The notes below the pieces were generated by a model, which was not told the DNA's origin, ran no database searches, and worked only from the letters and a program-made list of their open reading frames with translations. A stretch of 54,622 nt of DNA. Origin: Acidimicrobiia bacterium. GTDB lineage: Bacteria; Actinomycetota; Acidimicrobiia; IMCC26256; PALSA-555. Shown here piece after piece: positions 30,612 through 33,108 of the stretch. A program made the translations under genes and the position numbers. The stretch lies in contig SHVJ01000004.1 in the NCBI GenBank assembly GCA_009694295.1, positions 1 to 54,622 on the forward strand, written 5' to 3'. Every line of letters begins with the position of its first letter. Positions within the stretch are counted from its first letter, which is position 1.

Positions 30612-30709
30612 CGCGGGCGAGCGTAGCGAGGCAGTCTCGCGATCTTTCCGTAATTGCATGGCGAAGGAACGGTGTGCGCGTACTCACTGATATCGTTGTC
30701 CCTTCTCGG

Positions 30710-30783
30710 GGGCCTGTGGCTCAGTCCGGTAGAGCACCTCCATGGCATGGAGGGGGTCGAGGGTTCGAGTCCCTCCAGGTCCA
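30710..30783 (+). tRNA. tRNA-Ala(GGC)
   Basis: 74-nt cloverleaf: acceptor GGGCCTG/CAGGTCC with G3:U70, D stem GCTC/GAGC, anticodon stem CCTCC/GGAGG with loop ATGGCAT, T arm GAGGG-TTCGAGT-CCCTC; no encoded CCA. Confidence 0.96.
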
Positions 30784-30866
30784 CTCTCCGTGGTATTCCT
30801 TTCACCTCCAGTGAGGGGCGTGTGTGGGCATCGAGCCGCCGCCCATTGGCGCGAGACTCATTGCTC

Positions 30867-31616
30867 GTGCTCAGCCAGCAGCAGATTGACCGGTTTGATC
30901 GGGATGGGTTTCTCGCCCTCGATCGGCCGTTCGTCTCCACCGACGACCTCGAAGTGGCGCGGCGACTCATCGACGGATTGTTCGAGCGCTTCGACGAGCT
31001 TCCCAGCGACCTCGCCTACGACCTCGGTGATGTGCAACTCCACGACGGACCGCAGCAGCTCCCAGAGATCAACGACGTGCTCCGGCTCGAGCCTCGACTC
31101 CTGACCACAGCCGCCTTTGCGCGTTGTCGCGACTTGGCCGCCGAGCTGTTGGGGAACAAGGTCAAGTGCTCGTTCTCCCACGCCATCAACAAGCCTTCGC
31201 ACACCGGCGCGGCCAGAGAGTGGCACCAGGATCTTGCCGACGCACCGCACCTGGCGGGAGTCGACGCGGTGCACATCTGGTTCGCGCTCCAGGATGTGAA
31301 CGAGGCCAACGGCTGCATGCGCTTCATCCCTGACGACGAGCATTCCCGTCTCCTGCCCCATCGACAGCGTGGCGGGAGCTCCCTGGCGCACGCGCTCGTC
31401 GCCGACGGCGTCGATCGCACACGGGCCATTGCCTGCCCCTTGCAGGGCGGGATGGCGACCGTTCACCGGCCGATGACGCTCCACTCGACCGGGCCCAACA
31501 CGACCCACGAGCCGCGCCTGGCTTGGATCATGCACTTCCATCGAGAGGCGCCGCGACCGCTGAGCGTCAGAGCCCGACGCTCGTTGTCACGGATCAAACG
31601 GTCGCTGCACGCCTGA
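30867..31616 (+). CDS. Phytanoyl-CoA dioxygenase (PhyH) family protein
   Basis: Fe/2OG oxygenase pattern: EWHQDLAD and GGMATVHRPMTLHSTGPN...RLAWIMHFHR. Start GTG 30867 or TTG 30861. Confidence 0.85.
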   Translation: MLSQQQIDRFDRDGFLALDRPFVSTDDLEVARRLIDGLFERFDELPSDLAYDLGDVQLHDGPQQLPEINDVLRLEPRLLTTAAFARCRDLAAELLGNKVKCSFSHAINKPSHTGAAREWHQDLADAPHLAGVDAVHIWFALQDVNEANGCMRFIPDDEHSRLLPHRQRGGSSLAHALVADGVDRTRAIACPLQGGMATVHRPMTLHSTGPNTTHEPRLAWIMHFHREAPRPLSVRARRSLSRIKRSLHA

Positions 31617-31660: not shown

Positions 31661-32317
31661 ATGATCGGGATCATCGACTACCGAGCTGGCAACGCGCCCA
31701 GCGTGGGGTACGCGCTGACCCGGCTCGGCATCGAGCACGAACTCGTCGACACGCCCGAGCGAATCGAGACGCTCGACCGCATCATCCTTCCCGGGGTTGG
31801 CGCCGCACGAGCGACGATCAACTCGCTCGAGTCGTCAGGCCTGGTCGAGCCTCTCACGCGTCGTGTGCGCGACGACGGCGTGCCGTTCCTCGGCATCTGC
31901 ATCGGGCTCCAGGTGCTCTTCGAGCACTCCGAGGAGAGCGACACGGCCTGCCTCGGATGGGTCCCCGGCGAGGTCCGGCGCTTCCCCGATACGGCCCGAG
32001 TCCCTCAGATCGGTTGGAACGCGGTGCACGTGCAGCGCGACCACCCGCTCACGGCATCCTTCCCCGATGGCGGTCACTGCTACTTCGTGAACTCGTACTA
32101 CGCGGTCCCGACGAGCGACGACGACGTGCTCGGCCGTACCGACTACGGCCTCGAGTTCTGTTCCGTCGTGGCCCACGACAACATCGTCGCCACGCAGTTC
32201 CACGCGGAGAAGAGCGGACCGCTGGGACTCGGCTTGCTCGCCGCCTTCGCCCAGTGGGACCCCGCATCACGGGATTTGGCATCACGGGATTTGGCATCAG
32301 GAGATTCGACATGCTGA
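31661..32317 (+). CDS. hisH: Imidazole glycerol phosphate synthase glutaminase subunit (HisH family)
   Basis: MIGIIDYRAGNAPSVGYAL, ILPGVGAA, LGICIGLQVLFE (Cys nucleophile), VATQFHAEKSG (His/Glu). Confidence 0.88.
   Translation: MIGIIDYRAGNAPSVGYALTRLGIEHELVDTPERIETLDRIILPGVGAARATINSLESSGLVEPLTRRVRDDGVPFLGICIGLQVLFEHSEESDTACLGWVPGEVRRFPDTARVPQIGWNAVHVQRDHPLTASFPDGGHCYFVNSYYAVPTSDDDVLGRTDYGLEFCSVVAHDNIVATQFHAEKSGPLGLGLLAAFAQWDPASRDLASRDLASGDSTC
32264..32308. repeat. 15-bp tandem repeat, 3 units, at the hisH 3' end
   Basis: gcatcacgggatttg / gcatcacgggatttg / gcatcaggagattcg; encodes ASRDL ASRDL ASGDS, ending 2 nt before the hisF ATG. Confidence 0.95.
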
Positions 32318-33108
32318 CCAAGCGGTTGATCGCCTGCTTCGACGTGGTCGACGGCCGGGTCACGAAGGCCCAACAGTTCCAGGACAACATCGACGTGGCA
32401 CCCGCAGAGGAGCTCGCACAGCGCCTCTACGACGACCAGATCGACGAGATCGTGTTTTACGACATCACGGCAAGCGCCCAACGGCGCAAGATCGATCTCG
32501 ACACGGTGCGCCGAGTGGCGCAGCACGTGTTCGTACCCTTCACCGTCGGCGGCGGCATCCGGTCGGTCGACGACATGTTCGAGGTGCTCAAGGCCGGCGC
32601 CGAGAAGATCAGCGTCGACTCCATGGCAGTGCGCAACCCCGACATCATCCGCCAGGGCGCTGAGGCCTTCGGACGACAGTGCGTGGTGCTCAGCACCCAG
32701 GTGAAGCACGTGGGCATCCGTGCAGGACTCCCGAGTGGCTACGAGGTGTTCATCGACGGCGCCCGCGAACCGACGGGCATGGACGCGCTCGACTGGGTGC
32801 GGCGCGGCGAAGACCTCGGCGCGGGCGAGATCGTGGTCAACAGCATCGATCGCGACGGCACCGCGTCGGGCTACGACCTCGACATCACGAGCGCGGTCGC
32901 CGCGTCGGTGAACGTGCCGGTGATCGCCTCGGGTGGTGCCGGCACGGTCGAGCACATCGCCGACGGCCTCACGACGGGCGGTGCACAGGCCGCCATCATC
33001 AGCTCGATCCTCTACTCACCGCGCTTGGAACGGAACCTCGGTGTTCGCGAGCTGAAGGAAGGACTCGCGGCACGCAACGTGCCGATGCGGCCCTATCTCG
33101 AGACCTGA
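32311..33108 (+). CDS. HisF family (beta/alpha)8 protein with substituted catalytic residues
   Basis: MLTKRLIACFDVVDGRVTK, FYDITAS, FTVGGGIRSV, NSIDRDGTASGYD, VIASGGAG. Residue 130 is Gln and residue 103 is Asp. Confidence 0.88.
   Translation: MLTKRLIACFDVVDGRVTKAQQFQDNIDVAPAEELAQRLYDDQIDEIVFYDITASAQRRKIDLDTVRRVAQHVFVPFTVGGGIRSVDDMFEVLKAGAEKISVDSMAVRNPDIIRQGAEAFGRQCVVLSTQVKHVGIRAGLPSGYEVFIDGAREPTGMDALDWVRRGEDLGAGEIVVNSIDRDGTASGYDLDITSAVAASVNVPVIASGGAGTVEHIADGLTTGGAQAAIISSILYSPRLERNLGVRELKEGLAARNVPMRPYLET

Follow-up and report, generated by a model that had tools for sequence, protein, structure and literature searches.

Studies of barrel evolution, allostery and enzyme design use HisF as a model. 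Its two aspartates Asp11 and Asp130 are treated as an essential acid-base pair, and the aspartate of strand beta-5 is common to HisF and HisA. The window analysed here, a whole stretch of 54,622 nucleotides on contig SHVJ01000004.1 from the MAG of an Acidimicrobiia bacterium, carries a hisF homologue that keeps the first of these residues and has glutamine in place of the second. The locus raises the question of whether the encoded protein still serves histidine synthesis or has turned to something else, the preliminary description of this DNA having proposed a barrel with altered chemistry. As stated, that proposal is not supported: the protein is the sole HisF of genomes in which the pathway is kept, and it takes the place of the ordinary hisH and hisF. 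What is probable instead is an imidazole glycerol phosphate (IGP) synthase, formed by HisH and HisF, with a relocated carboxylate, and we give a probability of about 0.68 to the reading that the window hisF encodes a functional cyclase subunit of this enzyme, making histidine with its second catalytic carboxylate relocated.

The gene (32311..33108, forward strand) encodes a 265-residue HisF homologue of D103/Q130 type, as judged by translation, family profile, an AF2 model and Foldseek. Its best NCBIfam family is TIGR00735 (285.5 bits, E 3e-85), a score that falls just short of the equivalog cut-off of 294.55 bits; the HisA/PriA model TIGR00007 gives 109.5 bits against a cut-off of 228.95, and a separate HisA is found in relatives. 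The AF2 model is a HisF barrel with a mean pLDDT of 92.9, whose best Foldseek matches are HisF structures at a TMt of about 0.9. Both the sequence family and the (beta/alpha)8 fold are those of HisF, and the D103/Q130 protein is a variant within this known family. The dN/dS of the gene, 0.05-0.22 overall and 0.05-0.08 against the same genus, indicates purifying selection.

Alignment with Thermotoga maritima HisF (1thf) and HisF-LUCA runs without a gap up to residue 132, and the gap-free Thermotoga numbering from the ATG at 32311, on which the preliminary description relied, is borne out through that residue. Positions 103 and 130 are thus no alignment artefact, and misalignment was rejected as the source of the swap. 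Translation and alignment also confirm the three residues to which attention had been drawn. Asp11 (32341..32343), the canonical general acid, is kept; a CAG codon (32698..32700) gives Gln130 in place of the canonical Asp, the general base, and a GAC codon (32617..32619) gives Asp103 in place of the Asn of sampled canonical HisFs. The two catalytic roles are those assigned in PMC11350729, the base role of Asp130 being itself inferred in the literature. In the AF2 model residue 103 lies at the end of beta-4 and residue 130 in beta-5, and in the Thermotoga barrel D11, N103, D130, T171 and S201 form one layer (PMC4565649).

The other residues that PMC4565649 and PMC5980557 list for the active site are kept in D103/Q130 HisFs. 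In the window protein these include R5, C9, K19, D51, G80, G82, K99, S101, S201/G202 and S225, together with Thermotoga D176 (query D182), the ammonia-gate residues R5/E46/K99/E167 (query E173) and intact phosphate loops, in agreement with the earlier observation that R5, K19, K99, D176 and the phosphate loop look intact. What the protein has in common with the canonical Thermotoga enzyme is the fold, D11, K19, D51, K99, D176, S201, the phosphate loops and ammonia gate, a HisH partner and the standing of sole HisF alongside a his pathway, whereas D130Q, N103D and a location outside the his operon set it apart.

The two substitutions are tightly linked. Residue extraction after a genome-contig scan found Asp103 in 43/43 distinct Q130 sequences and Asn103 in 90/90 sampled D11-type HisFs with Asp130, and no N103/Q130 or D103/D130 intermediate was seen among these 43 and 90 sampled sequences. 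Since the same pair occurs in all 43, which come from independent MAGs and isolate genomes, the swap is not a matter of chance or sequencing error. Rather than a loss, the two changes look like a single coupled exchange by which the active site retains a carboxylate. The bearers form two clades. The close clade A (62-95% identical; D103, Q130, SSxLY) occurs in Acidimicrobiia, Cellulomonas (isolate genomes included), Bacillota/Oscillospiraceae, a spirochaete and Silicimonas; the deeper clade B also has D103 and Q130 but retains ASxxH, and its hosts are Binatota, Latescibacterota and some deltaproteobacterial MAGs. Against TIGR00735, clade A scores 272-291 bits, just below the cut-off, and clade B 339-349 bits, above it. 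Two MAG records titled 'Bifidobacterium breve' (L026 and L036) hold HisFs 95% and 82% identical to this acidimicrobial lineage, and their organism name is probably wrong.

By DNA pattern scan the variant is a minority form, present in 14 of 197 genomes of the class, all in the window's order, and in 2 of 118 genomes of the phylum of one clade B member. The canonical DNA pattern demands Lys at 132 and misses many canonical HisFs, so that most Acidimicrobiia genomes match neither pattern, and 2 of its 31 matches (L189 and L190) look like chance AT-rich matches; mutual exclusivity of the two forms is therefore judged from the family search only.

Further changes accompany the pair, of which G20A in loop1 and T171N are absent from the preliminary description. 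Ala20 (32368..32370) is found in 36/36 clade A sequences, and glycine in all sampled D11-type HisFs outside that clade. In the Thermotoga enzyme G20A brings kcat down from 2.4 to 0.022 per s, about a 100-fold loss (PMC11350729), so loop1 of clade A must work differently or more slowly. The FH motif, reported earlier as altered, is indeed changed, Tyr235 (33013..33015) standing at Thermotoga His228 (FH to LY); however, this holds for clade A only (Tyr in 36/36), the histidine being retained in clade B, and H228Y was set aside as part of the swap. A105M and A224S are likewise additions of close clade A to the canonical pattern. T171N is common to ordinary relatives that retain Asp130, hence not specific to the swap, and was set aside as predating it.

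These relatives are the Desulfo-type HisFs of Thermodesulfobacteriota and others (motifs VLGMDVK and LNSIDADGT). In a HisF tree computed without columns 103 and 130, the D103/Q130 sequences nest within HisF and join the Desulfo-type as its sister group with support 100/100, at a great distance from the canonical HisFs found in the same class; clade A itself has support 100/100. The two sister groups have in common Y50, N171, T18 and an insert after beta-5, but the Desulfo-type retains N103 and D130. One Omnitrophota sequence (L082) groups among clade B with N103/D130 but with the surrounding SMxVK and VNSIDADG motifs of the swapped clade, and is possibly a pre-swap or reverted form; the order of the N103D and D130Q changes is something that we infer. 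The AU test does not reject the pair having arisen only once (p = 0.39), and, the linkage being one by descent, it counts as one or two events and not as 43 independent ones. The scattered hosts of clade A argue for horizontal transfer, and our results indicate that the hisH-hisF(Q130) pair spreads horizontally as a two-gene cassette.

Whether such a cassette serves histidine synthesis can be judged from what else its hosts encode. The survey of the window's order covered 29 genomes: the MAG that holds the window and 28 others with a completeness of at least 90%. A Q130 HisF was found in 15 of them, that of G005 being a fragment at a contig edge (94% identity) with no other HisF beside it; canonical N103/D130 HisF was found in 10, an HisF2-like copy alone in one and no HisF in three. 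In none of the 29 did the family search reveal a Q130 and a canonical HisF together, and in 14 the Q130 protein is the only HisF. A paralogue standing beside a hidden canonical HisF was rejected, since relatives with a completeness of 90% or more showed no canonical copy. Canonical genomes of the order have hisD-hisC-hisB-hisH-hisA-hisF; Q130 genomes have hisD-hisC-hisB-hisA, with hisH and hisF gone and the hisH-hisF(Q130) pair elsewhere, and the same cluster lacking both genes is present in G040, a one-contig genome 99% complete. Where HisH is present in Q130 genomes there is one above the cut-off, directly upstream of hisF, with the exception of G009, whose second HisH belongs to an HisF2 pair. 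HisB (IGPD) was found in 26 of 27 genomes tested and HisG in 13 of 13.

A similar situation is seen beyond the order. Four Cellulomonas isolate genomes have the Q130 protein as sole HisF, in which nothing else but PriA resembles HisF and the ORFs tested near hisB and priA matched neither the HisH nor the HisF model; on the histidine prototrophy of Cellulomonas the open-access literature offered no useful evidence. It is also the sole HisF in clade B genomes (Binatota, Latescibacterota and others). Canonical HisF coexists with clade A HisF in three genomes, one spirochaete and two Silicimonas, where the Q130 protein might thus do something else. At 64.5% completeness, the MAG from which the window comes yielded neither a HisB match nor a second HisA/F-type match, and the pathway evidence thus comes from its relatives only. 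In these relatives the Q130 protein is the sole HisF of organisms that keep the pathway. Being the sole HisF with the pathway otherwise kept, it is the only visible IGP synthase candidate in many organisms, and its use as such in vivo is strongly inferred. In several Acidimicrobiia families and some Cellulomonas, the Q130 pair has taken over from the hisH and hisF that the his operon carried.

The partner, HisH (31661..32317, forward strand), scores 203 bits with TIGR01855 (cut-off 105.4) and has the likely glutaminase triad Cys80/His181/Glu183, and its 3' end shares 7 bases with the start of hisF; a complex of the two proteins is predicted from the adjoining genes, from the triad and from this being the one HisH above cut-off in nearly all Q130 genomes. 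The earlier predictions of a barrel that can still bind a phosphorylated ligand and dock HisH gain support from the kept phosphate loops and ammonia-gate residues and from the adjacent intact HisH. The HisH C-terminus (about 32270-32310) carries a short in-frame repeat, RDLASRDLASGD. At their 3' ends hisF and a convergent rsfS ORF share 16 bases (33093-33108); the Q130 pair adjoins rsfS in the window, G010 and G040, and sits among unrelated housekeeping genes in other genomes. Directly upstream of hisH lies a phytanoyl-CoA dioxygenase-like (PhyH) gene (30654-31616, forward strand), which precedes hisH in the close relative G011 (L003) too. It was not detected at that place in G009 or G010, and is therefore not part of the conserved pair. 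In its long form, with a TTG start, the PhyH ORF overlaps a tRNA-Ala (GGC) at 30710-30784 (forward strand); the real PhyH start should thus be downstream of the tRNA.

As for mechanism, acid and amide have traded strands, with Asp at 103 on beta-4, Gln at 130 on beta-5 and Asp11 on beta-1 unchanged. Asp103 may supply the carboxylate that position 130 has lost, and Gln130 may assume a hydrogen-bonding role; PRFAR cyclase activity, which would turn PRFAR and NH3 into IGP and AICAR, and the part of Asp103 as base are both predictions. The simplest alternative to relocation is that the protein is a working IGP synthase in which Asp103 is not the base but a partner to D130Q in packing or charge balance, Asp11 acting alone with Gln130, Asn171, water or a rewired loop1. 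In favour of this are the inferred status of the Asp130 role, the altered loop1 of clade A, and Gly364 at position 103 of the yeast enzyme (table in PMC5980557), by which 103 is not universally needed. However, a carboxylate has been gained in the same layer exactly when the old one was lost, in all sampled members of both clades, and we consider this alternative unlikely. The proposal of altered chemistry, in which the barrel has another phosphorylated ligand, or clade A a specialised side function, and histidine is made otherwise, can point to the loss of the textbook base, to G20A and H228Y and to the three genomes with a canonical copy. Yet it has to contend with the Q130 protein being sole HisF, with the pathway otherwise kept, in at least 14 genomes of Acidimicrobiia, in 4 of Cellulomonas and in clade B, and with its mutual exclusivity with canonical hisHF in the order survey, which makes it quite improbable.

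A different kind of suspicion attaches to WbuZ and AglZ-HisF2 (TIGR03572, NF038364), HisF paralogues that likewise have a HisH partner and lie outside the his operon, and that feed ammonia to a sugar-amidating enzyme instead of making histidine. The WbuZ and HisF2 models do match the window HisF (228.5 and 187.3 bits), and it is under the TIGR00735 cut-off, but both matches are far below the curated cut-offs of 299.7 and 310 bits. What is more, several genomes of the order hold a third kind of HisF, nearest to these models, which shows the opposite pattern, D11 changed to Leu with D130 kept. WbuX above cut-off was found in 6 tested genomes, all 6 with such a copy, and lies just upstream of the copy's HisH where both are located; none was found in the Q130-only genomes examined, and the window pair has unrelated housekeeping genes as neighbours. 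The HisF2/WbuZ identity was rejected for the window HisF on its scores, its residues and the missing WbuX, and is very improbable. The D11-to-Leu copies with HisH and WbuX, seen at L229 (G061), L233 (G009), L234 (G057) and L248 (G159), are likely a sugar-amidation module in several Acidimicrobiia. A decaying pseudoenzyme or an assembly artefact, to which the lost catalytic residue might point, is contradicted by a frame that stays open and residues that agree across many independent genomes, those of isolates among them, and by the dN/dS values; it was rejected and deserves hardly any credence.

Against the preferred reading of a relocated carboxylate weigh Ala20, H228Y and A224S of clade A and its TIGR00735 scores just below the cut-off. 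In its fuller form, namely a mobile HisF lineage whose general base passed from beta-5 Asp130 to beta-4 Asp103, with Gln in the old site and histidine still made, and whose clade A tolerates G20A so that acid-base pair and loop closure are both rewired, we lean towards it by a little.

We found no description of natural Q130/D103 HisF variants in the open-access literature, to which our search was confined, subscription papers lying outside its scope, and nothing relevant there on D130N in HisF. Engineered D130V HisFs (e.g. PDB 4ewn, D130V+D176V) replace the same residue as the window protein but, by the 4ewn description, are laboratory mutants without a compensating Asp103. N103D/D130Q is a ready-made reciprocal swap with which to weigh the position of the carboxylate against its mere presence, and a lineage living without Asp130 would illustrate how a catalytic residue passes from one strand to another. 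The textbook catalytic aspartate of HisF has probably moved here rather than been lost, and to conclude from its absence that the gene is inactive or the host auxotrophic would probably mislead.
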